The position numbers and the translations under genes were made by a program. DNA of 64,000 nucleotides from Neoarius graeffei (Eukaryota; Chordata; Actinopteri; Siluriformes; Ariidae). This document shows positions 12,407-62,809 of the stretch, piece by piece. The notes beneath the pieces were generated by a model. It made no database searches. It was not told the origin of the DNA and saw only the letters and a program-made list of their open reading frames with translations. Where the stretch lies: NCBI RefSeq assembly GCF_027579695.1, contig NC_083583.1:22961099-23025098 (forward strand). The letters are read 5' to 3'. Positions within the stretch are counted from its first letter, which is position 1. Each line of letters starts with the position of its first letter.

Positions 12407-13106
12407 GGCTACGTTTACATTAGACCGTATCTGTCTCGTTTTCTTCGCGGATGCACTGTCCGTTTACATTAAACTGCCTGGAAACACCGGGAAACGGGAA
12501 TCCGCCAGGGTCCACGTATTCAATCTAGATCGTGTCAGCTCCGGTGCTGTGTAAACATTCAGAATACGCGGATACGCTGTGCTGAGCTCTAGCTGGCGTC
12601 TCATTGGACAACGTCACTGTGACATCCACCTTCCTGATTCGCTGGCGTTGGTCATGTGACGCGACTGCTGAAAAACGGCGCGGACTTCCGCCTTGTATCA
12701 CCTTTCATTAAAGAGTATAAAAGTATGAAAATACTGCAAATACTGATGCAAATACTGCCCATTGTGTGGTTATGATTGTCTTTAGGCTTGCCATCCTTCC
12801 ACTTGCAAGTGGTAAGTGATATGCGCTGGGATCACACACACAGCGGCTCAGTCCCGAATCACAGCTTGTGCACTTCACTCGCGCGCTGTGTGAGCTGCGC
12901 AGGGCCGGAGTGCGCACCCTCCAGAGGGCACTCGCTGTTCAGGGCGGAGTGATTTGGAGCGCAGGATGCCTGCGGAGCCGAGCGTATCCGTGTATTGGTG
13001 TTGCTGTGTGCACACAAATCGTGTATTGGTGTTGCTGTGTGCACACTAATCGTTTTAAAAACGTTAATCTGATGATCCGCTGATATGGTCTAATGTAAAC
13101 ATGGGC
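12407..13106 (+). mobile_element. 700-bp PIF/Harbinger-like MITE, copy A
   Basis: Ends are GGCTACGTTTACATTAGACC and the complement of GCCCATGTTTACATTAGACC. Flanks are TTG and TTA; the sister copy at 47,961-48,660 has exact TTA/TTA flanks and the same 700-bp length in the opposite orientation. A 3-bp TWA duplication is typical of PIF/Harbinger. No transposase is encoded; frames inside are incidental. Confidence 0.75.
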
Positions 13107-13143
13107 TTAGGTACATCTCAAACTTAGTAGCCTAATAGAATCT

Positions 13144-15949: not shown

Positions 15950-17018
15950 TACACTGACCAGCCACTTTATTAGGAACACCCATGCACCTGCTGCTCTCTT
16001 TTATGCAGTTGTCTAATCAGCCAATTCCTTGACAGCAGCACAATGCACAAAATCATGGCAATACAAATCAAGAGTTTCTGTTTATGTTCACGTCAAACAT
16101 CAGAATGGGGAAAAAATGTGATCTGGCATGGGTGTTGGTGCCAGATGGACTCGCTTGAGTATTTCAGAAACTGCTGATCTCCTGGAGTTTTCACACACAA
16201 CAGTCTAGAGTTTACACAGAATGGTGCGAAAAACAAAATAACATTGAGTGAGAGACAGTTCTGTGGCTGGAAATGTCTTGCTGATAAGAGAGGTCAGAGG
16301 AAAACGGCCAGATTGGTTCGAGCTGCCAGGAAGGATATAGCAACTTATACACTACTGTTCAAAAGTTTGGGGTCACTTTGAAATTTCCTTATTTTTGAAA
16401 GAAAAGCACTGTTCTTTTCAATGAAGATCACTTTAAACTAATCAGAAATCCACTCTATACATTGCTAATGTGGTAAATGACTATTCTAGCTGCAAATGTC
16501 TGGTTTTTGGTGCAATATCTCCATAGGTGTATAGAGGCCCATTTCCAGCAACTCTCACTCCAGTGTTCTAATGGTACAATGTGTTTGCTCATTGCCTCAG
16601 AAGGCTAATGGATGATTAGAAAACCCTTGTACAATCATGTTAGCACAGCTGAAAACAGTTTAGCTCTTTAGAAAAGCTATAAAACTGACCTTCCTTTGAG
16701 CAGATTGAGTTTCTGGAGCATCACATTTGTGGGGTCGATTAAATGCTCAAAATGGCCAGAAAAATGTCTTGTCTATATTTTCTATTCATTTTACAACTTA
16801 TGGTGGCAAATAAAAGTGTGACTTTTCATGCAAAACACAAAATTGTCTGGGTGACCCCAAACTTTTGAACGGTAGTGTAGCAACTCTTTACAACCGTGGT
16901 GAGCAGAAAAGCATCTCAGCATACAACAACAGAAGAGCACATTGGGTTCCACTCCTGCAGCCAAAAACAGGACTCTTAGAATCAAGAACAAGGTCCTATT
17001 AAAGTGGCCAGTGAGTGT
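15950..17018 (+). mobile_element. Tc1-like relic with nested 528-bp MITE
   Basis: Left end CACTGACCAGCCACTTTATT and right end CCTATTAAAGTGGCCAGTGAGTG are inverted repeats flanked by TA on each side. The interior is short, with no intact transposase. The 528-bp MITE at 16,350-16,877 is inserted at a TA within it; limits are accurate to a few bases. Confidence 0.7.
16350..16877 (+). mobile_element. 528-bp Tc1/mariner MITE, copy A
   Basis: Ends CACTACTGTTCAAAAGTTTG and the complement of CACTACCGTTCAAAAGTTTG, flanked by TA (16,348-16,349 and 16,878-16,879). A copy of identical length lies at 44,083-44,610 in the opposite orientation. No coding capacity. Confidence 0.88.
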
Positions 17019-24731: not shown

Positions 24732-24908
24732 GTTTATTCATCACACGTACACTTGTGAAATTCCTCTCTGCATTTAACCCACCTGAAGCAATGAACACAC
24801 ACATACTGTATACACACACATACCCAGAGCAGTGGGTAGCCATCCCAACAGCACCCGGGGAGCAGTTGGGGACTCTGTATTTTATAATAAAACATAAAGT
24901 ACCTTGGG

Positions 24909-26883: not shown

Positions 26884-28186
26884 ATTACGTCAATTATGTA
26901 AATACGTCTGTTTGTGTGGAATGCATCAGTGTGGTGCACTGTATACATTAATCCCTAATTTTTGCAGCTCCCGTTCCCGGACATGCTGAAAATGAGACTT
27001 TATCCCTAAAGGCCTGAACCCGATTGTCCAGTGTGTGGAAATTCTTTAAACACAGACCTAAAATGGTGCTCTTGTATGCTTTATAAAACCAAAATGGCCT
27101 CCCATGACAGCCATGCTTGAGGTTCTTCAGATGCAGTGTTGTTTTTGGCAGCCATTTTTGATTTAGTTTTAGTCTTAGTCTTTTGGACGAAATGCTTATT
27201 AGTTTTAGTCACATTTTAGTCAATTCCATCCTTGACAGTTTTGGTCTAGTTTTAGTCCAGTTTTAGTCATTCATTTTAGTTGAAAAAATAATTACTTTAA
27301 AACATTAAATTAGGCCAATACAGAGATAGGAAATTGTAATTGAGGTTGACAGGTTGTGCATAACATACTCTCAAAACAGTGTCTCAAAACAAACTTGTTT
27401 CACTTGAACGTAAAAAGTATGTCAAATATTTGGGTTTAATAATCGCTGACAATCTTTCTTGGAAGCCTCATACTGATTTTATTTGCAACAAAATAAGCAA
27501 GGTTGTCGGCCTTTTGGCCAAGCTTAGACATTTTATTCCACTATGACATTATATCGATCTCTGATTCAACCTTATTTAACATATGGTCTTAGTTCTTGGG
27601 GACAGGCTTGTAAAACTCATATAAATAAAGTATTAATCCTACAAAAACGAGCTTTAAGATTAATCCATTTTGTTGATAATAGAGAAAGTGCCCTTCCATT
27701 GTTTCCCAAAACCAATATTTTACCAGTAAATCTTCTTTTCTATGAATGTATTTCTAAATTAATGTACGTATGAGGTTGTTAATCAAAGTGCACCCTCAAA
27801 CATTTGTAAATTATTTTCTTCTATTTCTAGTAACCATTCTTATAACACTAGGTCATCTTACTCCAAGAACTTATATACTCAGTATTCTCGTACAAATCTA
27901 CAAAAGAACTCATTTTCCCATGTTGGTGTTAGGGTATGGAACCAGATTCCAACTTCTATAAGATCTTCATCTAAATTGTCGTTCAAGAAAAAAGTCAGAC
28001 ACCACCTTTTTTCTGATTTAAGTAGATATGGATATGATGTTGACATCTCCAAACTCTTTCTTTCTACATAACTTTATTTCTATATATAATTAAGAGCTAT
28101 ATACATTTATTTATTTATCTTAGTTTTAACTTTAAATATTATTTAATACCATGCATGAATTATTATTATCAGTATGACAAGTATAC

Positions 28187-28190
<4 letters not shown>

Positions 28191-28248
<58 letters not shown>
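28191..28248. repeat. (TC)n(TA)n compound microsatellite
   Basis: CT run followed by TA run within the LINE 3' region. Confidence 0.95.
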
Positions 28249-28252
<4 letters not shown>

Positions 28253-28370
28253 TTTTTTCAATGTTATTGAATGATATATTACTGTACCTTTATATCGAAG
28301 AACAAGTATTGTCTCCTCATTTTCTTTTTGTTACTAAATAGTTGTTAATTTGTCAAGTATGTTTTATTAT

Positions 28371-28737
28371 GGCGGCACAGTGGTGTAGTGGTTAGCGCTG
28401 TCGCCTCACAGCAAGAAGGTCCGGGTTCGAGCCCCGGGGCCGGCGAGGGCCTTTCTGTGCGGAGTTTGCATGTTCTCCCCGTGTCCGCGTGGGTTTCCTC
28501 TGGGTGCTCCGGTTTCCCCCACAGTCCAAAGACATGCAGGTTAGGTTAACTGGTGACTCTAAATTGACCGTAGGTGTGAATGTGAGTGTGAATGGTTGTC
28601 TGTGTCTATGTGTCAGCCCTGTGATGACCTGGCGACTTGTCCAGGGTGTACCCTGCCTTTCACCCGTAGTCAGCTGGGATAGGCTCCAGCTTGCCTGCGA
28701 CCCTGTAGACCAGGATAAAGTGGCTACAGATAATGAG
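28371..28737 (+). mobile_element. tRNA-derived SINE (family 1), copy 7
   Basis: Full length with head GGCGGCACAGTGG and intact box B GGTTCGAGCCC. Exact 12-bp duplication ATGTTTTATTAT (28,359-28,370 and 28,738-28,749), which shows it landed in the LINE 3' UTR. Confidence 0.92.
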
Positions 28738-28866
28738 ATGTTTTATTATCTTTTTCATACATATTTAAGTATTATATTAATTCATATAAAATATTTTTTT
28801 TCTTTGTAAACATGAGTCTGCCTTGATTAGCAGTGCGCTATTTGCAGACTTGTGTAGTCTATTATA

Positions 28867-30445
28867 CAACCCCGATTCCAAAAAAGTTGGGACAAAGTAC
28901 AAATTGTAAATAAAAATGGAATACAATAATTTACAAATCTCAAAAACAATCGCATAATCTAGGTCGCGTAGCTCGATTACGAGAAATCCAGTTCGGTTCG
29001 ATTTCAGCTGAGCTAAGGTGTTTCCATGGCATTTAGAACTTCGATTTCAGTCGAGCTACGGCAGAAATTCGATTTTCTCTATGTGTATGTAAACGCACTG
29101 TGTGTTAGCCCAGCAATAGACTAGCAACCTGTCCAAGGTGTAATGATGTGGAAGTTTCAAAATTCTTGTCTAATGTAGGATTCTAGTTGCTCAACTGTCT
29201 TAGGTCTTTTTTGTCGTATATTCCGTTTTATGATGCGCCAAATGTTTTCTATGGGTGAAAGATCTGGACTGCAGGCTGGCCAGTTCAGTACCCGGACCCT
29301 TCTTCTACGCAGCCATGATACTGTAATTGATGCAGTATGTGGTTTGGCATTGTCATGTTGGAAAATGCAAGGTCTTCCCTGAAAGCGACGTCGTCTGGAT
29401 GGGAGCATATGTTGCTCTAGAACCTGGATATACCTTTCAGCATTGATGGTGTCTTTCCAGATGTGTAAGCTGCCCATGCCACACGCACTAATGCAACCCC
29501 ATACCATCAGAGATGCAGGCTTCTGAACTGAGCGCTGATAACAACTTGGGTCGTCCTTCTCCTCTTTAGTCCGAATGACACGGCGTCTCTGATTTCCATA
29601 AAGAACTTCAAATTTTGATTCGTCTGACCACAGAACAGTTTTCCACTTTGCCACAGTCCATTTTAAATGAGCCTTGGCCCAGAGAAGACGTCTGCGCTTC
29701 TGGATCATGTTTAGATACGGCTTCTTCTTTGAACTATAGAGTTTTAGCTGGCAACAGCGGATGGCACAGTGAATTGTGTTCACAGATAATGTTCTCTAGA
29801 AATACTCCTGAGCCCATTTTGTGATTTCCAATACAGAAGCATGCCTGTATGTGATGCAGTGCCGTCTAAGGGCCCGAAGATCACGGGCACCCAGTATGGT
29901 TTTCCAGCCTTGACCCTTACGCACAGAGATTCTTCCAGATTCTCTGAATCTTTTGATGATATTATGCACTGTAGATGATGATATGTTCAAACTCTTTGCA
30001 ATTTTACACTGTCAAACTCCTTTCTGATGTTGCTCCACTATTTGTCGGCGCAGAATTAGGGGGACTGGTGATCCTCTTCCTATCTTTACTTCTGAGAGCC
30101 GCTGCCACTCCAAGATGCTCTTTTTATACCCAGTCATGTTAATGACCTATTGCCAATTGACCTAATGAGTTGCAATTTGGTCCTCCAGCTGTTCCTTTTT
30201 TGTACCTTTAACTTTTCCAGCCTCTTATTGCCCCTGTCCCAACTTTTTTGAGATGTGTTGCTGTCATGAAATTTCAAATGAGCCAATATTTGGCATGAAA
30301 TTTCAAAATGTCTCACTTTCGACATTTGATATGTTGTCTATGTTCTACTGTCAATACAATATCAGTTTTTGAGATTTGTAAATTATTGCATTCCATTTTT
30401 GTTTACAATTTGTACTTTGTCCCAACTTTTTTGGAATCGGGGTTG
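28867..30445 (-). mobile_element. Tc1-like transposon, internally rearranged
   Basis: Inverted ends CAACCCCGATTCCAAAAAAG with TA on both sides. Its relative at 51.39-54.07 kb shows that the sequence between the 3' coding end and the right subterminal region (about 28,955-29,145) has been replaced by unrelated DNA with GTAGCTCGATT/CGAGCTACGG words, and the last about 35 codons are lost. Confidence 0.85.
29157..30092 (-). pseudogene. Tc1 transposase, truncated, start codon lost
   Basis: Same family as the copy at 51,758-53,859. The expected ATG is ATA, an in-frame stop follows WAQEYF (about 29,797), and the C-terminus is cut near 29,157. The DDE residues are present: [17 protein letters not shown] and SPIENIW. 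Not functional because of the breaks. Confidence 0.88.
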
Positions 30446-30520
30446 TATGTTTATATGTAATTGAAACAAAAGATTGATTGATTGAAGTGTGCATGCTCTC
30501 TACATAAACACTGTCTAGTG

Positions 30521-30871
30521 CAGACATCCCAAGTCTCCCGGAAGTTCCGGGAGTCTCCCACATATTGATAGTGGCTCCCTGATACCCGCAAATTGGATAA
30601 TATCTCCTGGAATCTAGAGCAAGCAAGCAAGAGCGTGCATGTGAAACATTAATGTCTGCATCGCGCATATGACGGAGTGCACGAGGGAGAGCGAGAGAGA
30701 CTGCGTGTGTTCCTGTTCATGTAGCGCATGCTAGACAAACAGCATCCTGATTGGTTTACAGACATCCAAACTCATTTCAGGGAGGTGTCATGACCCCCCC
30801 CCGCTGATGGGGAAAAAAGTCATGCGTCACGACACCTCCCTGAAATGAGTTTCTGCAGGTTGGGATGTCTG
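30521..30871. mobile_element. Small hAT-like TIR element (351 bp) with internal hairpin
   Basis: Starts CAGACATCCCAAG and ends CAGGTTGGGATGTCTG (complement CAGACATCCCAACCTG). Flanks GTCTAGTG and CTTGTGTG match only 5 of 8, so the duplication is doubtful. The right third (30,759-30,871) is itself a long inverted repeat. Confidence 0.5.
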
Positions 30872-31394
30872 CTTGTGTGTATGCTCCATTGTTCACAGAC
30901 TCGTGTTTCTGCCTCCGTTTAATATGTCACAATGCGCTGATAGAGCACAAACATGTCATGATGAACACACAACTAGAAGATGACCACGCTGTCCATTAAT
31001 GTAAATATGATGGCTAAACGTGCTGCTAACGTTAGGGCAGCCAGGTGTGCTGCTGCTCATTTAGACACAGCAACAGGTCTGAAAAGCTACATTTCCCCCC
31101 GTATGTTTCACAGTAACTCAAATATGCGTCAGTATATGACAAAGCATTCAGTTGCTGTCCCACCAATAATCCCTGCAGGACAAGTTTTACTCATGACATA
31201 TTAATTGAATTTAAGTTAGCTTAACCAAGCCAACTTTAGCATGAAGCTAGCGGTCCCATTCATTTTCGCCAGGTCACGGTGTTTTGGAAAACTTCATAGG
31301 AAATTCATCACAGACCGATTGTTGAGTGACATTAACCAAAGCTAGCAAACGTATGCATGATCTGTTAACAGGACTTCTTGTAATGTTAACTTAC

Positions 31395-31604
31395 CGTCGC
31401 AGAAATAGCAGCATGGTGAGCCTTTAGATGTCTCTTGAGGTCGGTCGTATTCTTGCCACGTAGTTTATAGCCACAGCTTGTACCTCTGTCTCCCACTACA
31501 AGGCATTCCGTTTTATTTTCTGCTGGATTATGTGTAAAGTATGTCCGTAAATCATCGCGTCTTTTCCGCCCACCAAGCCCTTGGGCTGGCATTGCCGCCG
31601 CCAT
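31395..31604 (-). pseudogene. hAT transposase BED zinc-finger exon
   Basis: The 70-codon exon reads DLRTYFTHNPAENKTEC, then C-G-YKLRGKNTTDLKRHLKAHH, with the Cys pair and HxxxH of a BED finger, the DNA-binding N-terminus of hAT transposases. It ends at a canonical splice donor (ACG then GTAAGT, minus strand, 31,394-31,389). No downstream catalytic exons are left in the element, so it is an orphan. It lies 340 bp inside the 5' end of the 27,134-31,944 hAT. Confidence 0.75.
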
Positions 31605-32446
31605 GGTCCATGAACTGTGTGGCTGCCCCGGTGTGCACTATGCCTGGTGGGCGTGGCCAAACAAGGACAGGATGCAGGTGCATTGCTGATATTTTCAGCA
31701 TTTGGCAGACAGGTTGTACGCGCCGTTGAAGGAAACGCCATGCATTTTGATAGTCCTATAGCCAACCCACTAACATTTTCGTCTCGTCTCGTCTCGTCTC
31801 GTCAACGAAAACAACAGATACGTCTCGTCATATTTTCGTGATCAAAGAGTTATGTTTAGCTCGTCACTGTCTCGTTTTAGTCATGAAAAAAGGTGCGTTA
31901 ACGAAATCATTTCGTCATCGTCATCGTTAACGAAAACGACACTGTTCAGATGTTGTCTGTTTACACCTCTTTTCGACCAACAGGGAACGGGTTCTTGAAC
32001 CAATTCCGTTCAGGACTCTTTGAACCTTGGTGTCAGTTGGTAAACCAGCCCACGTTTTCACCGGAACCGTTATAATCAAGGATGAGCTGTACAATGCCAC
32101 TGTATAACTGTGGTACACTGTCTTACCATGTATACTGTATCCTTAACTCAGGTGCAATATATGTATATAGGAATCATTGTATATAAAATCACTTCATTTT
32201 GCTTTTAGTTAAGTTATTGAACTTATTTAAACTTATTTTATTTTATTTATTCTTTTTTCAGACGATTTTATCTTCTATTTTTAGACATGTTTACTTCTCT
32301 GATTCAGGAGCTTGGTAGCAAATTTGAATTTCCCTCCGGGGATTAATAAAGTAATTCTGATTCTGAGTCATAAACGGAGGGTATTGCACAACAAGAGTAA
32401 CCAGTAGTAGCAAGATGGCAGTGCACATTGATTACCTGTGATTTTT

Positions 32447-43487: not shown

Positions 43488-44054
43488 TTAACTTAAAGGT
43501 ATCGAGTAATGAAAACAATTTAAGGGCTTTTTTTTATCATTAATCTGCTTTAACGACTTACTTAAGACCTTAAGCTCATTCCTCCACCTAATCAGACAGG
43601 GTTTTGTTTTAAAATACCTGCATTTATGTATAAAGAATTTTCCAAGTATTAATAAAACATTAACAACAAAATCTAGATTTCTATCATCAATAAACACACC
43701 AAATTTGACCATGTTTACAGTCAGAGGTGACAAATCAATGTTTTTGGACTGCAGCCAGCTTTGCATATCATTCCAAAAGGGTTGTACTAAGTTGCAATTG
43801 AAAAATACACGTTCCAGATCCTCAGTTTCTTTCTTACAGAATACACAATTATTTACATCAAAGTTAAATCTTAATCTTAGGAATTGGTTTGTCAGATAGA
43901 TTTCGTTTAAGGTTTTAAAATTTACTTCTTTAATTTTCGGGGGAAGAGGAAATGACAAATATTTTGTTCTTATTTTCTTTACCTCTTCAACTTCAAATCC
44001 TTTGAGAATATGAAATCTTCTGATTAGATTGGGATGACATTCCTGCATCAGCAT
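43488..44054 (-). pseudogene. LINE ORF2 C-terminal part
   Basis: 188 open codons ending the LINE protein. Contains FNFDVNNCVFCKKETEDLERVF, a Cys/His cluster seen at the C-terminus of L1/Tx1-type ORF2, then FWNDMQSWL and IHKCRYFKTKPC. Such C-terminal regions assist RNA binding in target-primed reverse transcription. No start of its own; a remnant. Confidence 0.7.
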
Positions 44055-44082
44055 GTATCTGACAACCTTATTGGGACATTTA

Positions 44083-44610
44083 CACTACCGTTCAAAAGTT
44101 TGGGATCACCCAAACAATTTTGTGTTTTCCATGAAAAGTCACACTTTTATTTACCACCATAAGTTGTAAAATGAATAGAAAATATAGTCAAGACATTTTT
44201 CTGGCCATTTTGAGCATTTAATCGACCCCACAAATGTGATGCTCCAGAAACTCAATCTGCTCAAAGGAAGGTCAGTTTTATAGCTTCTCTAAAGAGCTAA
44301 ACTGTTTTCAGCTGTGCTAACATGATTGTACAAGGGTTTTCTAATCATCCATTAGCCTTCTGAGGCAATGAGCAAACACATTGTACCATTAGAACACTGG
44401 AGTGAGAGTTGCTGGAAATGGGCCTCTATACACCTATGGAGATATTGCACCAAAAACCAGACATTTGCAGCTAGAATAGTCATTTACCACATTAGCAATG
44501 TATAGAGTGGATTTCTGATTAGTTTAAAGTGATCTTCATTGAAAAGAACAGTGCTTTTCTTTCAAAAATAAGGACATTTCAAAGTGACCCCAAACTTTTG
44601 AACGGTAGTG
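44083..44610 (-). mobile_element. 528-bp Tc1/mariner MITE, copy B
   Basis: Same ends and length as 16,350-16,877 but inverted; TA at 44,081-44,082 and 44,611-44,612. Only a few substitutions are visible in the compared ends, so the family amplified relatively recently. Confidence 0.9.
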
Positions 44611-44814
44611 TATAGTCACAGAAATCAACACCCTCAATGCAAAGCTGTCTTAGTCGCAGACAGACCTTTGAATAAACAATGTCTTCTTTGACCATTGACC
44701 TCAGAGAAAGTGGTATGGCTTTTATAATCTTATTATACAGTTTAACTGTGCATTTGAATAGAAATTTCTGAAAAAAATTCTCCATGTTGTAATACATTTC
44801 CATTGTCATCCAAG

Positions 44815-45135
44815 AAATGACCTTAACCTTTACCTTATCCTCTTCTTCCCTGGTGGGAAATAAGGCCCCAACCCAGTGACGCCATTCTTGGAGATCCTTC
44901 ACTACTTTTTGGGCTTCACCCCATGTAAGGCCCGTCTCTTCAAGCTCGGCCTGGACTGTTCTTCGCCAGGTTGTTTTGGGTCGTCCAGGCCTACGCATCC
45001 CAGCAGGGGTCCACTGTAGTGATGTCTTTGGTATGCGCCCTTGCTCCATTCTTAAAACATGTCCCACACATTTCAGGCGACGGCGCTTAATTTCCAGTAT
45101 GATGTTGTAGCAGCCTGTGTATCTATAGAGTTCTT
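44815..45135 (-). pseudogene. C-terminal fragment of a second LINE (RTE/craniofacial-development-protein-2-like)
   Basis: The minus-strand peptide RRRLKCVGHVLRMEQGRIP, then GRPKTTWRRTVQAELEETGL and WRHWVGALFPTREEEDKVKVK matches the C-terminal end of a fish LINE protein often mis-annotated as craniofacial development protein 2-like. It interrupts the L1/Tx1-like relic. Only the last 100 codons are present, consistent with 5' truncation at insertion. Confidence 0.65.
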
Positions 45136-45606
45136 CATTTGACACTTTCTGTGGCCAAAAGAAAGTGAGCAATTGCCCAAATCCAAGAAATGAGCAATTG
45201 CCCAAATCCCTTTTGACCCCCATTCTTCAAAATACAAGGATTTTCTGCCAAGTAATATGTATCCGTTATTCCAAATTGGTGTATTATGTGGAGTGAAGTT
45301 ATGTTTATAGATTAGCTTCCAAAAGAGTAACATTTACTGATGAAAAGTAGAAAGTTTAACTGGTACTGAGTTAATGTCAAAATCACATCGAAGAAAGAAG
45401 TCTGTTCCCCCATTTTCTAAAAAATTCCATTTGGGATAATAAACCAAAAAGAGTGCCTATTCCTAATAAATGTTTGTAACCATTTTAATTTTAGAACCCC
45501 ATTCATAATATTAAAGTCAATTGCTTTAACACCCGCCTCTTCATAATTTTTAACCATGCCATTTTTCCTAATGTAATGACATTTGTTTCTCCATATGAAA
45601 TTAAAG

Positions 45607-46000
45607 TTATATAGATAAAGAGAAATATGGATAAATAAGTCCAGACAGACCATCCATTTTGGTCAATAACACTCTACCAAAGATCGTAATGTCTCTTTGC
45701 AACCACCTACTCATAGTTGATTTACATTTATCTAAATTCTTCCCAATATTTAAATCCTCAATTGTTGTTTTATCCTTAGAAATAACCATACCTAAGTACT
45801 TAACCTCTTTCTTAATCCTTATATTGTATAAAGGTTGCAGGGGATAATCATGTAAAGTTAATATTTCACATTTGTCTACATTCAACTGTAGTCCTGATGC
45901 TTTTCAGAATATATTTATCAACTGTAAGGCTATAGGAATTTGAGTTTCATTTTTTAAAAATAAGGTTGTATCATCTACGTTAATTGACTAATTATTATTT
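45607..46000 (-). pseudogene. LINE reverse-transcriptase core fragment
   Basis: Contains the VDD-T catalytic box and the downstream KCEILTLHDYPLQPLYN and VKYLGMVISKDKTTIEDL segments. A TGA follows LINIF (about 45,905). Cut at its N-terminal side by the hAT nest whose duplication is AAAATAGA. Confidence 0.65.
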
Positions 46001-46377
46001 GACTTCCAAATATATTTGGGCCTTCAATTTCACTATTTTTGATCAAAATAGACAGAGGTGGACAGTAACGAAGTACATTTTCTTGAGTACTGTACTTAAG
46101 TACACTTTTTGAGTATCTGTACTTTACTTGAGTATTTTTTGTGGAAACTTATGACTAACTTCACTACATTTGAAAGACAAATATTGTACTTTTTACTTCT
46201 ATCAAGGTCCTCGTTACTCATTACTATGAAGCAGCTTTGAAAGTGAATTTTTTTCTTTTCTTTTCTAAAACATGATTTGGTTTTTTCGTAGGTGACACTG
46301 AGACAGACTATCAGTAATCACTAGGGTCTTCTGGGGAATGCACGCACCCATGGCCATACCGAGAACCCATGTCTCAG

Positions 46378-46493
46378 TTTTCTGAAAGGATTAAAGATTT
46401 GTTTCGTTTTAAACATTTGCTTTGTTTGCCGAAAATGAACCACATCGCGGCCTACAAAAACTCGCTGTCTGACCTACGGAAGCATATTGAGGT
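46378..46493 (+). pseudogene. BED-like exon of the outer hAT
   Basis: Encodes FRFKHLLCLPKMNHIAAYKNSLSDLRKHIE, that is a Cys, the YKNS-S-LRKH core and His of a hAT-type BED finger (one Cys appears lost), followed by GAG then GTATAT, a weak splice donor. No downstream exon remains. Confidence 0.5.
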
Positions 46494-47277
46494 ATATAAA
46501 CGTTTTATTCCAAGAGAAAGCTTGCAATGAAGTTGTCTGTGCTTTTAAAGCTAGCGATAACGATGCAATAGCTATGCAGTCTGGTTAGTCAACTGACTTT
46601 CTGTGGATTTGCCCGCCAAGTTGCCGTAGTCTTGTCCACAGCTATCGTTGGACACAGTTAGCATGTAAAAATGGAGTAACGCTAACATGAATCACGTTAA
46701 CTTATCTGAAGTGCTTTCAGAAATACATTTTAGCATAATCTTGCCAAATAACCAGAATGTAGAAATCATTCTTTGCTAATAACGTTAGCTACCCAATATG
46801 ATTTCAAGTTTGAAAAGTGTTTGTTAGCATGTCAGGTGGAGCTTCACTAGGGTGACCAGATTTCCCCAGTCTGAAACCGGGACACTTTTGCGCGCGACCA
46901 TGCTCGTGCACGCACACCTTTTTTTTACGTAAATGTGACACTCAGAGAGGTGCTCTTATCATTTTGTTGAAGCTCACATTTATCAACATCTCACATGAAA
47001 TAAAACAAACAGGAATTTTGTTATCTAGTAGCATAGTGGTATACAGATCAGTTAAATTATGGTCAGACAACAGATTTTGTAATGGCTGAGAATAGGCCAG
47101 GCTATGTCCATAGGCCAAATTTAAACTGATTTATTTCACCTGTTTGTGAGAACACCTAGAAGAATGCATATGCACATGTAGGCAGGGCCGCTGACAGCTT
47201 TGGCTGGGCCCGGGACAAAATGCTCTGAATGTGCCCCCCCCCTGGGCCAACCCACACACCCACCCACCTCTCTTATC

Positions 47278-48782
47278 CAGTGTTGGGCACGTTACTTTCA
47301 AAAAGTAATTAGTTATAGTTACTAGTTACTTTTCCCAAAAAGTAACTGAGTTAGTAACGGAGTTACTTTGTCATAAAAGTAACTAATTACCAGGGAAAGT
47401 AATTATTCCGTTACATTTTGTTCCCCCTCAAAAAAAAATCAAATTCAATTAGTGTAATCATAATAAAAGTGAATGTTAAATGTGTTTAATGACTGAAATG
47501 GACACTTAACAGAACCAATTAGTAACGTTATCTACACTATATTAATATTTTTGTGGGACAATGTGAGATAAGACATCTATCAAATTTAATATATTTTTGT
47601 AGTTATTAAAATTGTTACTAATTACTGGCCACTGACGAGGACAAACGCTTTGTTCCTCGACATAATGTGCATTGCACATAGACATTTTTGCCTTTTATTT
47701 CAAGTAATGAAAAGTAATGGCTGTATTTCCAGTGTGAAAACGCAGTGTTGGGCTGACCGCTCGCCATCGCTGTGTCTTCCGATTGAAAGAGCATGCAGTA
47801 GGCGTGGCCTACCTACGTATGTTGTCCAAATCTACTCTGATTGGCTTACTGTGCCGTTGTCTCGCGTCTCCCCGCCCCACACTAAAGCAGAGTAAAGAAA
47901 GGCTGAACGAGCAGCGTGCCAGATGAGAACAGCTTTAATAAAGTAACGCATAGTATTTTAGCCCATGTTTACATTAGACCGTATCAGCGGATCATCAGAT
48001 TAACGTTTTTAAAACGATTAGTGTGCACACAGCAACGCCAATACACGATTTGCGTGCACACAGCAACACCAATACACGGATACGCTCGGCTCCGCAGGCA
48101 TCCTGCGCTCCAAATCACTCCGCCCTGAACAGCGAGTGCCCTCTGGAGGGTGCGCACTCTGGCCCTGCGCAGCTCACAGAGCGCGCGAGTGAAGTGCACA
48201 ACCAGTGATTCGGGACTGAGCCGCTGTGTGTGTGATCCCAGCGCATATCACTTACCACTTGCAAGTGGAAGGATGGCAAGCCTAAAGACAATCATAACTA
48301 CACAATGGGCAGTATTTGCATCAGTATTTGCAGTATTTTCATACTTTTATACTCTTTAATGAAAGGTGATACAAGGCGGAAGTCAGTGCCGTTTTTCAGC
48401 AGTCGCGTCACATGACCAACGCCAGCGAATCAGGAAGGTGGATGTCACAGTGACGTTGTCCAATGACGATGCCAGCTAGAGCTCAGCACAGCGTATCCAC
48501 GTATCTCAATGTTTACACAGCACCGGAGCTGACACGATCTGGATTGAATACGTGGACGCTGGCGGATTCCCGTTTCCCGGCGTTTCCAAGCGGTTTAATG
48601 TAAACAGACAGTGCATCCGCGAAGAAAACGAGACAGATACGGTCTAATGTAAACTTGGCCTTATTATAAATAACAGGAACGGCGTTATAACGATGTAAAA
48701 AGTAATTAGATTACTCGTTACTAAAAAAAAGTAACGCCGTTAGTAACGCCGTTTATTTCTAACGCCGTTATTCCCATCACTG
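47278..48782. mobile_element. hAT-like MITE, layer 4 of the nest
   Basis: Ends CAGTGTTGGGCACGTTACT and complement CAGTGATGGGAATAACGG, followed by AGTAACT/GTTACT and AACGCCGTTA words. Flanks TCTTATCC and GTTTATCC agree at 6 of 8. It lies near the left end of layer 3 and contains the 700-bp MITE. Confidence 0.75.
47961..48660 (-). mobile_element. 700-bp PIF/Harbinger-like MITE, copy B (layer 5)
   Basis: Exact TTA duplication (47,958-47,960 and 48,661-48,663). Ends GCCCATGTTTACATTAGACC and complement GGCCAAGTTTACATTAGACC. Same length as 12,407-13,106 in inverse orientation. It is the innermost and therefore youngest insertion of the nest. Confidence 0.85.
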
Positions 48783-49202
48783 TTTATCCCAGTCTCTACT
48801 CACTCCAACCCTTAAATGACAGGTATTCAAAAACCATTCAACCGGTCAACAACCATTTCATTTTAGCATTTCAACATTTTTACAGTTTTAACATTTTAAC
48901 ATTTCCTTAGTCTGCAACTATTCAGGTGCGAAATGCAATGCGCTGGACTTTTGTTGTGCGTGCGTGCGTACTGTCCAGTGTGAAAAGCAGGAGAAGAACA
49001 CACCGCTCGAGAAACGGCGGGATATGATTGCGGGCTAATGTGAATATTCTTAGCTTCAATCAGATATATGAAACACAATGTTATTAAGCCGTTGTGGTTA
49101 TGAAATGATTCAATGCCCTGTGCATTTGATATGGTGTTCAGTGTGACTTGCTCTCCCCTCGTTTGTAACATGAATTGCGTGCCGCGCGTGCCTTGGTTGG
49201 GG

Positions 49203-49388
49203 TTACTTTACGGGGCTGGAAAAAGTTGGCTGTGTCTTACCTGGCTCAGCTGCCCCACTGCCTTTGCTAGTACCTGCTGCATCATCCGAATCTTTTTTTA
49301 AATATTTATGCAGTGAGCCCCTGAGTCTCTTGGTTTCTTCCTCTCTTTTCTTTTCTTTTCTGTGCTCCTGACTTGTGCATGTTGGCAA
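49203..49388 (-). pseudogene. N-terminal exon remnant of a ZMYM1-like hAT transposase
   Basis: Encodes the basic segment KSGAQKRKEKR and LRGSLHKYLKKDSDDAAG, split between two frames by a shift near 49,345. This S-G-(A/S)-xKRKxKK then LxxFL pattern opens many TTF-type hAT transposases. A possible donor GTAAAG follows at about 49,206. The catalytic part is absent. Confidence 0.5.
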
Positions 49389-50169
49389 ATGGCACGCACG
49401 CTGATTGTCGAAGCGCTATGATCGAACGATGTCGTTTTTTTCCCCTTAATCCAAGAGTCAGACCAAACCATTTTTGTATTAGCGGTGGTAGGGGGTTCTT
49501 GACGACTTTTTCAAAGACAATAAAGGCAAAAGATCTAGAAATCATTTATTGAATGCAAATATAGCACATTTCTCCCCCAAATCAACACATTTTGAAATGA
49601 AATAAAATAATCGCAACTTCATTAGAGCCCAGTTCTGGGGTCCCCCCCCATTCCTGGGCCCCCCTCCCCCATTCCTGGGCCCGGGACAACATACCCGTTT
49701 GTCCCCCCCTGTCGGCGGGCCTGCATGTAGGCTATATATCTAAAATTGTATGCACTATAGCATGAACTTAAAAAGTAGATATGTGACCTCAACATAGCCT
49801 AGGTCAGAATCAACCTTACTCACCATTCCCCACAACTGAATGAATAAAGCAAGAAGATGTGTACAAAAGTGAACACTTTAATGGAAGGTGCAACAAGCTG
49901 TTCAACACAGCAATATGGCCAAACTGTCAGAATGTTATGTTAAAGAGAAACAAAAAAGAGACAAGTGATTTGAGAATATACACTCAAACAAAACAGCAAT
50001 AAAGGAGGAGAGGGGCGACAGCCTGAGGAAAGCCCCCACAGGAGTGCACATCATTTGCAACATAGGCTACCCAACTCAGTACAAGAACAAAGCACAGGAA
50101 CAAAGCTAAGGCAACCGTCAATCCACCCAACTTGTGTTTAGCTGTTTTAATGTGATCCTGTATATCGGC

Positions 50170-50304
50170 ATTACCACCGTGGGCTACGGAGAAGGAACAC
50201 TTACAGTGTGTGCAGTAGGCTTCATGCGCATTGTTCTGCACCTCTCGGAGGAAGGGGTAGGTGCCCTGTAAATCTTTGGAAAAGGTACATTTTCTTTTCG
50301 GCAT
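50170..50304 (-). pseudogene. Zinc-finger N-terminus of hAT layer 2 transposase
   Basis: Starts MPKRKCTFSKDLQGTYPFL and has YCTHCKCSFSVAHGG then DIQDHIKTAKHK, a CxxC plus HxxxxxH BED-type finger. The open frame runs on to 49,984 but the residues after the finger are probably intronic or degenerate. Confidence 0.7.
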
Positions 50305-51019
50305 AATTGCTGCGGCATTACTGCTGCTAGTTGCTAGACAAAGAACATTCGCGCCAGTTAATGTTTATTTTATTGTTGCATGGCAACACGTTCTGTTGTC
50401 TGGAATAATGTGACTAAATAAACACCCATGCCACAGGGTCAGGGGGCAGTAACCAGGAAAGTTTGCGATTCCTGTCAATTCATCAAAATAATAAATGCAG
50501 ACATTTCTCCGCTAATGATTCCCATGCTGCTCAGTCGCAAACGTCGCGAGTGGCGAAAACCGGGACATATCTGTGTCCCGACAGACTTTTGTCAGGACTC
50601 AGGACACACAACCCCAAATCGGGACCGTCCCGGTAAAACCGGGACGTCTGGTCACCTTAAGCTTCACTGACTATCTAGCTTAACGTTAAACCACCATGAT
50701 GGCACAGCATGTGTTCATTTTCTGAATTCACATTTCTGTCTTTGGTAATGATGTCAGGTTTTGTAAGTGTTATGGCAATAATACAAAGATGCATTGACAG
50801 AAAATATACTTTTAATACATAAGTATTTTTTAAAGCAAGTACTTCAGTACTTTAACTTAAGTAAAAATTTGACTGGACAACTTTCACTTGTATCAGAGTA
50901 ACATTTGACCAGTGGGATCTGTACTTTGACTTAAGTAATGAAGTTGGGTACTTTGTCCACCTCTGGAAATAGATAGCATTTATTCAAAGACATGCGGTTA
51001 CGTAGGTTAATATGGGACG

Positions 51020-51250
51020 GCCTTGGGCAGAGGTGGCCTTGAGCGAGGCACCTCACTCCCAACTCGCTCCCTGGGTGCTGTTAGCATGGCTGCCCACTGC
51101 TCTGGGTATGTGTGCGTGCTCATTGCTCACGTGTGTGTGTTCAAGTCAAGTCAAGTTTATTGTCAAATATGCTATATATGCTCGAAATACAGCACAGATG
51201 AAATTTCAGTCCTCTCTGATCCACGGTGCAAACAGGCAATGCAATAAATA
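51020..51250 (+). mobile_element. Family-3-like SINE 3' part and LINE-type tail
   Basis: GAGCGAGGCACCTCACTCCC and CTGCCCACTGCTCTGGGTA match the body of the SINE at 60,079-60,338 without the tRNA head; it is followed by CAAGTCAAGTCAAGTTTATTGTC, a repeat tail in antisense sense. Boundaries are approximate. Confidence 0.45.
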
Positions 51251-59225: not shown

Positions 59226-60078
59226 GTGTATAGGGCACCATATAGTGGGGACGCCGTTTTGTAGTGCTGTCCGAAACCTTAGCGAGGATTATTTACACCC
59301 TATACAGGCCTAGAAATTCATATATATATATTTTTTTTTTCACCAGCCAGCCGGACTAGTTCCCTTCCAAAGTAACTCGCCAAACAGAAAATCAACTCGC
59401 CAAAATTTGTTCATGTATGAATTTTACTTCTGTCAAAAACAACACAAAAGAGAGTAGTTACCATTTTGTGTAGTTACCATTTCCACTTCAGTGGCGACTA
59501 TGATATTGCATTAATTCAACAAAGTGTAAATTCAATATCATAGTCGCCACTGAAGTCAGGGAGCGCAAACGAGAAAGCTGGAATCGCAACCAAAATAAAT
59601 TACGTCAAGCAAAACTGAGAAAGACGCGGAACAAAAATAAAAGGTTTCTGAAGAGTAGTAGACTGATATTTTGCATGATTACATGAATAATTTGTTTGCC
59701 AGTCTAAAAAAATTTACTTTTTTTTTTTGTATTTTGATTTGTCGTTTTTTGTTTGATATTTCAAAAGTATTGTATGAACATTTTGGCACAAAATTGATTC
59801 CATAGATGTGAACCATGGTTGATTATTGAAAGTGCAGTAGGTCTTGGTTGGTACAAGCATGTCTTCACAAAAGCTGATCTAGGATGTCACAGTGTCTGTC
59901 AGTTCATCCAAGTTGTCAGTTGCAGCTCCAAAAATACTCTGATCAGTACATTCAAAACCGTCTTGCAGTTCGTGTTTTGCCTCGCTGGTCCATTTCTACA
60001 GTTTTCGCTACAGGTTTTGCAGATTTTAATTTTTGCCTGTAGGTTGGGATGAGATGGACTAAGCAGTGTAACCATGCA
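59226..60078. other. Unassigned DNA with a hairpin and poly-T runs
   Basis: Holds a perfect 24-bp inverted repeat (59,485-59,556) and TATATAT(T)n at 59,321-59,340. No gene recognised. Confidence 0.45.
59485..59556. repeat. Perfect 24-bp inverted repeat with 24-nt loop
   Basis: Arm 1 (59,485-59,508) begins ACTTCAGTGGCGACTATG and arm 2 (59,533-59,556) is its exact complement, ending CATAGTCGCCACTGAAGT. It would fold into a strong hairpin in DNA or RNA. Confidence 0.9.
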
Positions 60079-60338
60079 TGGGGCAGCCATGGCCTGAAGG
60101 TTAGAGAAGCAGCCTTTAGCCCAAAGGGTCACCGGTTCAATTCCCAGGGCCGGCAGGAAAAATGTGAGGGTGGTTGAGTGAGTGAACAGCACGTTCCCCT
60201 CCATCTCTCTCATGGCCGAAGTGCTCTTGAGCAAGGCACCTAACCCCCAACTGCTCCCCCGCGGTAACATGGCTGCTCACTGCTTCAGATGGGTTAAATG
60301 CAGAGGAGGAATTTCACTGTCCACGTGACAAAGTTGTC
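60079..60338 (+). mobile_element. tRNA-derived SINE (family 3)
   Basis: GGCAGCCATGGCCTGAAGGTTAG (box A), GGTTCAATTCCC (box B), GAGCAAGGCACCTAACCCCC, GGGTTAAATGCAGAGGAGG and a terminal GTGACAAAGTTGTCG. More complete than the copy at 3,791-3,957. Confidence 0.75.
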
Positions 60339-60494
60339 GTCTTTTAATATGGAGTCATTTGGGGTTCAGCCTGTCCCTGTGTCTGAAATTGCTCACTCGT
60401 TCACTACTCCCTATATAGGGAATTACTATATAGTGAGCTCATTGGTAAAATGAAAAAACGCTTTCGGACACTAGTCTGTAGCGCTGGTATTTAC

Positions 60495-61552
60495 TAGGGA
60501 TGTGACTTTTGATCAAAAACACTATTCGAAATTTGCTAAAAGATATTCGAAATTCGATTCGAAAATCGACAGAACCCCGCCCGCCCCACCCAAACGCGTG
60601 CACACGTGACAGACAGGGTGAAAGTGGTAACGGTTTAATGAGTCATCAAAAAACAAACTTCCATTCACCTCACATAGCCTACAGTATCAAACAATAATAT
60701 AGGCTTCCAATTTTATTGTACATTTCTATGCAGCCACGACTATTTTCGTCTGTTGGAAGGAACCGCGGGTGAAACTGCCCGTTTAGGAAACGATAATGAA
60801 AGCATTCGAACAGTCAGAGCAGAATAAACTTAAGATATATTTTTGTTCAAAAAAATTAACATGTCGACGTGGTCGGGATGGAGACGGGTACGCAGCCTAT
60901 TGACAATTAGACCGGCTGCGGAGAACACACGCTCCAATGGCACGGACGTTGCAGGCACACACAGGTAGGCGCTGGCCAACTTTGCCAGGCGAGGGTATTT
61001 CTGTTGATTGCCTTTCCACCATGTCATCGGGTCAGTGTGGAGCGGTGGGCATGTATCCTGGCAGTACTGAGTCAATTCAGTCACGCATGTTGCCCTCTCT
61101 GTGCTGTAATCCTCGCCAAATATGACGGCAATTGCTGCTGTTAATGGGCCATCCTTTCGGGAATGTTTCGGTTCACTGGGCCCTTCATGCGATTCCGCCG
61201 CCTCTCCGGCCTCTTCATCTGCCATGGACAGAAGGTTTCTCACCTCGGCCTGCACTGTGTTTCTCACCTCGTCAGTTGCGAACCTCAGGTGTTTGTGTCT
61301 GGGATCCAAAAATGAGGCAATGTATGCGACCTTGCGTGCGCTGCTGGCATTTGACTACCTTTACTGTACGATAGCGGCACCCTCTGGCCGAATTAATGCA
61401 ACAGAGTATGTTAGGAACAAGGAAACGCCTTTCCGCGCTCATTTTTTTTTTTAGTTGAATGTAACGTAAGCCAAAACGGCATTCGAAATTACTATTCATT
61501 ATTCGAACTCGTCACGAATATTCGACTATTCAAAAATCATGTCCCATCCCTA
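60495..61552 (-). mobile_element. hAT-Ac-like element (1,058 bp), deletion derivative
   Basis: Exact 8-bp duplication GTATTTAC (60,487-60,494 and 61,553-61,560). Ends TAGGGATGTGACTTTTGATC and complement TAGGGATGGGACATGATTTT, with ATTCGAA words on both sides. Retains only the C-terminal coding part, on the minus strand. Confidence 0.88.
60830..61309 (-). pseudogene. ZBED1/ZBED4-like hAT transposase C-terminus
   Basis: 159 open codons: DPRHKHLRF, an acidic linker, DPMTWWKGNQQKYPRLAKLA, YLCVPATSVPLERVFSAAG, then NRLRTRLHPDHVDMLIFLNKN. This is the hAT C-terminal dimerisation domain with its LAKLA and S-ERVFS-AG cores. The DNA-binding BED finger and most of the catalytic core are absent through internal deletion, so it is a remnant; the frame itself has no visible break. 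Confidence 0.85.
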
Positions 61553-62119
61553 GTATTTACGTCATTACTGTCGCACAATTAAAACGCGCCAGATCAGTCA
61601 GCTGGTGGGTTTTCAAAATAATAAATACATGCATGTATTTTTGTGATAAATGCGTATTATACTGACCGCATTTCCTACATTAATAAATACAAAGTACCTG
61701 CATCTTTTTTTTTTTTTTTTTAAATCAAGGCTGAATACTTTTCTTCTTTGCTGCTGTCTTTTTTTTTTTTTTTAATTAAATCAAATTTTAGTAGCCTGGA
61801 AAGCCAGACTAAATGTGAATATTTAGTCTGGCCTCGATCCGTAGACATTTCTGAAGGGGGTAGGAGGTAGGGGTGTGCAAAAATATCGATACGGTGATAT
61901 ATCGCGATACTTTGTCTTCCGATTCAATATCGATACTCAAAATTTGAATATCGATATTTTTTTCAAATAATAAATCATGTTTCAGACGGGTTGTAAATCC
62001 AGTACGACTTCCGCACCTCCGCTCCGCGAGGTGTCGCTGTGCCGCTCCCTCACTGCAAGGCACTCTTCGTCTTCTCTTTTTTTCCCGGTGGTTGCAGTGA
62101 GGAAAAAAAACAAGCAAGC

Positions 62120-62809
62120 ATGGCTGTTAACGTAAACCTAGAGACGCCGCCGAACTTTAAGGCAGATGTTTGGAGGCACTTTGGATTCCAAAGGAAAGGA
62201 GGAAAAAAAAAACAGTGAGCCGGACAAAGAGTACTCATCTCATCTCATTATCTCAAGCCACTTTATCCTTCTACAGGGTCGCAGGCAAGCTGGAGCCTAT
62301 CCCAGCTGACTATGGGCGAAAGGCGGGGTACACCCTGGACAAGTCGCCAGGTCATCACAGGGCTGACACATAGACACAGACAACCATTCACACTCACATT
62401 CACACCTACGGTCAATTTAGAGTCACCAGTTAACCTAACCTGCATGTCTTTGGACTGTGGGGGAAACCGGAGCACCCGGAGGAAACCCACGCGGACACGG
62501 GGAGAACATGCAAACTCCACACAGAAAGGCCCTCGCCGGCCCCGGGGCTCGAACCCAGGACCTTCTTGCTGTGAGGCGACAGCGCTAACCACTACACCAC
62601 CGTGCCACCCCAAAGAGTACTCACTTTGCAAAACCTGTTTCGCTCCAATTAGATATTCAGGTAACACAACAAACTTGCGAACTTACTTAGCACGACACCA
62701 CCCCGACATATTAGCTCAGCCGGAGCCACCGAAACCCGACCCGAAGCAAACTACACTGGACAGCGCCAAAGTCCTCCCGTCTACTTCAGTGATGTGTGAC
62801 TTACTGTAA
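62120..62809 (+). pseudogene. ZBED-type BED finger split by a SINE
   Basis: ATG at 62,120. Upstream half: PNFKADVWRHFGFQRK; downstream half from 62,612: KEYSLCKTCFAPIRYSGN then LRTYLARHHPDIL, giving the CxxC and HH ligands of a BED finger, the DNA-binding domain of hAT-Ac transposases. SINE copy 10 sits between, and the A-run at 62,200-62,212 shifts the frame to an early TGA. A stop at 62,807-62,809 follows a proline-rich tail. No catalytic domain remains. Confidence 0.8.
62238..62611 (-). mobile_element. tRNA-derived SINE (family 1), copy 10
   Basis: Antisense full-length copy; exact 12-bp duplication AAAGAGTACTCA (62,226-62,237 and 62,612-62,623). Confidence 0.92.

Follow-up and report, generated by a model that had tools for sequence, protein, structure and literature searches.

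A nest of five short, dead DNA transposons within an old, probably L1-like retrotransposon

How many insertions are stacked in the middle of this 64-kb window (the whole stretch of DNA that was analysed), and can their nesting be read as an order of arrival or even as a clock? The preliminary description had seen here five DNA transposons, one inside another. We re-read all five layers from the sequence of the 64-kb window, and their ends, duplications and nesting bore out this claim: each layer lies wholly within the next-outer one (Table 1), and the nest of five short dead DNA transposons in an old retrotransposon is confirmed as real. When each element was removed together with one copy of its duplication, the host halves abutted in the resulting empty-site joins. 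Four of the five layers are legible by eye, with duplications of at least 7/8 or, in one case, TTA/TTA; the description of readable duplications at nearly every level thus applies to layers 1, 2, 3 and 5, but the duplication of layer 4 is weak. A body-versus-body comparison revealed no substantial similarity among the layers, and with both ends and bodies unrelated the three hATs come from different lineages, as had been proposed. The locus is very probably best explained as a decayed L1-like LINE which was struck successively by five DNA transposons, each inside the previous one.

Table 1. Positions of the nested elements, their target duplications, exon remnants and host within the window
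Feature	Coordinates	Strand	Remarks
Layer 1 (hAT1), non-autonomous hAT, Tol2-like first eight bases CAGAGGTG	46053..50965	+	own sequence 1,093 bp
hAT1 duplication, left copy	46045..46052	.	AAAATAGA
hAT1 duplication, right copy	50966..50973	.	GAAATAGA (7/8)
Layer 1, possible first-exon remnant	46318..46527	+	open frame; BED-like by eye only
Layer 2 (hAT2), non-autonomous hAT, ends TAGGGTGACCAGA	46848..50659	-	own sequence 1,263 bp
hAT2 duplication, left copy	46840..46847	.	AGCTTCAC
hAT2 duplication, right copy	50660..50667	.	AGCTTCAC (8/8)
Layer 2, putative first-exon remnant	50125..50304	-	zinc-finger-like Cys/His spacing, pattern seen by eye
Layer 3 (hAT3), non-autonomous hAT, ends CAGGGCCGCTGACAG	47183..49723	-	own sequence about 1,028 bp
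hAT3 duplication, left copy	47175..47182	.	CATGTAGG
hAT3 duplication, right copy	49724..49731	.	CATGTAGG (8/8)
Layer 3, putative first-exon remnant and upstream part	49209..49545	-	independent relative in public contigs
Layer 4, hAT-like MITE, ends CAGTGTTGGG/CAGTGATGGG	47278..48782	+	own sequence 802 bp; duplication weak
Layer 5, PIF/Harbinger-like MITE	47961..48660	+	700 bp; duplication TTA/TTA
Independent copy of layer 5, outside the nest	12407..13107	-	96.7% over 702 columns
Host L1-like LINE, left (3') part, decayed, itself interrupted	43488..46052	-	zf-RVT, RVT_1 and L1 ORF2 matches
Host LINE, short right-hand continuation (thin evidence)	50966..51025	-	empty-site join

Any single short end is common, and the nest might on that account be a chance pairing of end-like sequences. 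The 64 kb were scanned for hAT-type ends with restricted start and end triplets, an inverted repeat of at least 10/12 and a duplication of at least 7/8, lying 100-8,000 bases apart, and 20 first-order Markov windows served as the chance control. The real window gave six pairs, among which this blind scan recovered the three outer hATs of the nest in strictly concentric position, whereas the simulated windows gave three pairs over all 20, never more than one per window (mean 0.15 per window), indicating that the nest is not due to chance. Furthermore, layer 5 has a genuine second copy (see below), which also argues against chance pairing, and we assign this explanation a practically negligible probability. 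Layer 4 was missed by the scan because its duplication is weak. Apart from the three in the nest, the pairs lay at 27,134-31,944, at 60,011-62,637 and, within the latter, at 60,495-61,552.

The pair at 27,134-31,944 has hAT-type ends CAGTGTTGTTTTTGGC and an exact 8-base duplication TTCAGATG, and it encloses a member of an about 370-bp repeat family that recurs through the window. The pair at 60,011-62,637 and the one at 60,495-61,552 that is nested in it are both of hAT type, with duplications of 7/8 and 8/8, and within the inner pair a hAT dimerisation domain lies at 60,830-61,354 (E 3e-22). In all, the window contains two cases of hAT-in-hAT nesting.

The two ends of the outermost element of the nest, hAT1, share their first 12 bases (CAGAGGTGGACA, 12/12). 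Like Tol2, a member of the hATs, hAT1 carries the eight bases CAGAGGTG first on both ends and an 8-base duplication; unlike Tol2, it has other bases after the eighth and is without a transposase, and it is Tol2-like in its ends only. The Tol2 end sequence is included in a primer of one study (PMC4818426). The ends of hAT2, TAGGGTGACCAGA/TAAGGTGACCAGA, match at 12/13. This element had been placed at 46,849-50,660 with an exact duplication; the duplication stands, but the best frame begins and ends one base to the left and is nearly equivalent, the slip being due to the 9-base common string AGCTTCACT. The third hAT has CAGGGCCG ends, and its two ends agree at 13/15.

None of the open frames of at least 60 aa listed in the nest (25/25) gave a Pfam match above the cut-off, in agreement with the earlier statement that nothing catalytic is retained; two Pfam matches below the threshold, one to ORC3_ins (E 0.021) and one to SpdB (E 0.076), were taken as chance. 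A hAT transposase or dimerisation domain was absent from layers 1-3 in the same Pfam search of these 25 frames, and layers 1, 2 and 3 are therefore filed as non-autonomous hAT-like elements only. It had also been proposed that each hAT keeps a remnant of its own N-terminal DNA-binding exon. Protein relatives were found for hAT2 and hAT3, but none for hAT1. In the protein collection, two of the four candidates for the layer 2 remnant were relatives, P0001 (E 1.4e-14) and P0002 (E 1.1e-13); against the window DNA, P0001 aligned at 53% over 60 aa (E 1.5e-20) and P0002 at 52%. The single candidate for the layer 3 remnant (1/1) was P0003 (E 2.3e-20), which aligned with the window at 49,209-49,325 (82% over 39 residues) and, with a stop, in the preceding stretch at 49,297-49,545 (43%); from these two alignments to layer 3, P0003 probably represents the translation of a copy from the layer 3 family. 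For the layer 1 peptide the protein collection held no candidate. Neither the three remnants nor P0001-P0003 had a Pfam match above the cut-off, and structure-sequence matches of the hAT1 and hAT2 peptides were set aside as chance matches only. The layer 2 remnant may be DNA-binding, judging from its Cys/His pattern seen by eye, whilst those of layers 1 and 3 are presumed to be so by resemblance. The five elements are non-autonomous, with bodies of about 0.7-1.3 kb each. Because each is short and without catalytic domains, each would have been moved by a transposase made elsewhere, that is, by trans-mobilisation.

The duplication of layer 4 had been given as 6 of 8. The ends of this layer do match (10/12, with related subterminal repeats), but the duplication agrees at 3/8 in register and at 6/8 only after a one-base shift, and the shifted reading was also reached by 0.01794 (1.8%) of 200,000 random window-position pairs. 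It could thus be argued that these ends do not bound one single insertion, in which case the nest would comprise four clean layers together with a MITE-like stretch in hAT3 that is older or rearranged. The weak duplication would fit such a reading, as would the recurrence of the 10-base end CAGTGTTGGG inside layer 4 at 47,743, where no matching duplication was seen. However, the agreement of the ends, the related subterminal repeats and the position of both ends inside hAT3 speak for one insertion, and we consider the four-layer reading very unlikely.

The innermost layer has arms of 26 bases that are 92% complementary, and the exact TTA reported earlier was found on both sides (3/3). It resembles PIF/Harbinger MITEs in its 3-base TTA duplication, its long inverted ends and its lack of coding capacity, an assignment made by ends and duplication, with no transposase partner identified here. 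Within the window only this layer has another copy, and the alignment of the two breaks down at both element ends. Over 699 aligned columns they differ by 14 transitions and 7 transversions (K2P 0.031), with 10 of the 14 transitions in CpG context. The second copy is flanked by TAA/CAA, as read by eye (2/3). Layer 5 contains a tandem duplication of 31 bases (48,014-48,078) that is shared by the second copy and is therefore a feature of the family.

On the left of the nest, a zf-RVT match lies in 43,488-44,084 (E 1.6e-06, above the cut-off), and the frame-joined peptide of this flank matched RVT_1 below the cut-off (E 1.3e-05). Human L1 ORF2 made up five of the six PDB sequences matched by the frame-joined LINE peptide, with a best E of 4.8e-06. 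Across the joined empty site the sequence reads on LINE-like, with about two to four right-flank residues in the stretch aligned to L1 ORF2, and another repeat starts at about 51,026, to the right of the LINE. That the nest sits inside a LINE is thus well supported on the left, where the minus-strand flank is L1-like, but thinly on the right, where the flank is brief.

Several other repeats were seen around the host. The repeat at 51,026-51,117 has partial copies at 60,214-60,284 (78%) and 24,812-24,870 (90%). A 534-bp repeat with inverted ends (TACACTACCGTTCAAAAG) occurs in two copies that are 98.5% identical, at 44,081-44,614 and 16,346-16,879; one interrupts the host LINE, and on either side of the other TAGCAACT can be read by eye. 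The copy at 44,081-44,614 was rejected as a possible clock for the LINE because it is an insertion in its own right and not LINE sequence. Between the host LINE parts, a stretch with an open frame at 44,820-45,090 may be the tail of a different LINE, which it resembles.

Target DNA is cut by hAT transposases with a stagger of 8 bases and by PIF/Harbinger transposases with one of 3 bases, and repair of the gaps gives rise to the duplications. By this mechanism, the decayed L1-like LINE would first have been hit by the hAT whose ends are Tol2-like. Layer 1 would then have received a second hAT, with TAGGGTGACCAGA ends, layer 2 a third, with CAGGGCCG ends, and layer 3 the hAT-like MITE; the PIF/Harbinger-like MITE would have landed last, inside layer 4, with staggered target cuts and gap repair leaving the duplications at each step. 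Since the layers are fully enclosed and their host halves abut, each element was inserted after its host existed. The strict insertion order claimed before therefore holds for each element and its immediate host, but an outer element may have arrived already loaded. Because an element that moves by cut-and-paste can take a passenger along, an inner element need not postdate the arrival of the outer one at the locus. We infer that each insertion occurred at this locus.

The nest could instead have been assembled in part elsewhere, if an outer hAT transposed carrying one or more inner elements and so arrived after the inner insertion. The sequence is compatible with a pre-loaded arrival, the elements measuring only 2.5-4.9 kb when loaded. 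Layers 2 and 3 have intact duplications and layer 4 has not, which would also suit such a history. Furthermore, a high cargo capacity is described for Tol2 derivatives (PMC4818426). However, the window showed no further copy of any element in its loaded form, and we regard assembly elsewhere as unlikely. The same low probability applies to the corollary that at least one outer hAT entered its present host pre-loaded and that nesting depth and age are opposed at this locus. Successive insertion at the locus remains our preferred reading.

As for age, the CpG observed/expected ratios of the own parts of layers 1-3 were 0.58, 0.57 and 0.64 (window 0.62), and those of layers 4 and 5 were 1.17 and 1.01. 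The value of layer 4 was reached by 20 of 1,264 overlapping 802-bp pieces of the window and that of layer 5 by 90 of 1,266 overlapping 700-bp pieces, nest pieces included in both counts. The higher CpG of layers 4 and 5, against values near that of the window in layers 1-3, is consistent with younger inner layers, as though these two had so far escaped decay, although family composition confounds the comparison. The duplication of layer 4 has decayed further than those of the enclosing layers 2 and 3, which runs opposite to a simple clock, with sites too few to weigh. These two age hints from within the window disagree or are weak. The internal clock proposed for this nest is plausible and known in principle. 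TinT reconstructs the order of activity from nested insertions (PMC3014933), and REANNOTATE works out which of the elements in a nest came first, with the remark that nesting is found throughout eukaryotes (PMC2672092). The principle is the same, but these methods use genome-wide counts, whereas a single locus yields one order only.

The preliminary description had also called the nest rare, and this did not hold. On wheat chromosome 3B, nests reach 8 layers among the 30,199 nested insertions reconstructed there (PMC4290129), and a second hAT-in-hAT pair is present in our own window. Those nests are likewise element-in-element; the present one consists only of short DNA transposons, spans about 5 kb and lies in an animal-like genome. 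hAT and L1 are among the elements described as predominant in fish genomes in a further study (PMC7599744). Judged by its repeats, the window would come from a ray-finned fish. Nesting of this sort is common in repeat-rich genomes, and the present nest, unusually legible as it is, adds one more case to a well-known kind, ordinary yet clean. The literature searched, with searches not aimed at the nest by name, contained no paper on it. Searching the window against Rfam and for tRNAs yielded no hits. Exact end patterns were absent from the viral (five patterns) and prokaryote genome (two patterns) collections searched; animal DNA is not expected in either, and this result therefore has no bearing on copy number.

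The nest leaves the known facts on the families involved unchanged. It is a clean teaching case, and it could be used to test software that resolves nests and to ask whether cut-and-paste elements move with passengers. If composite movement were true, nested DNA transposons would not need to be a clean clock.
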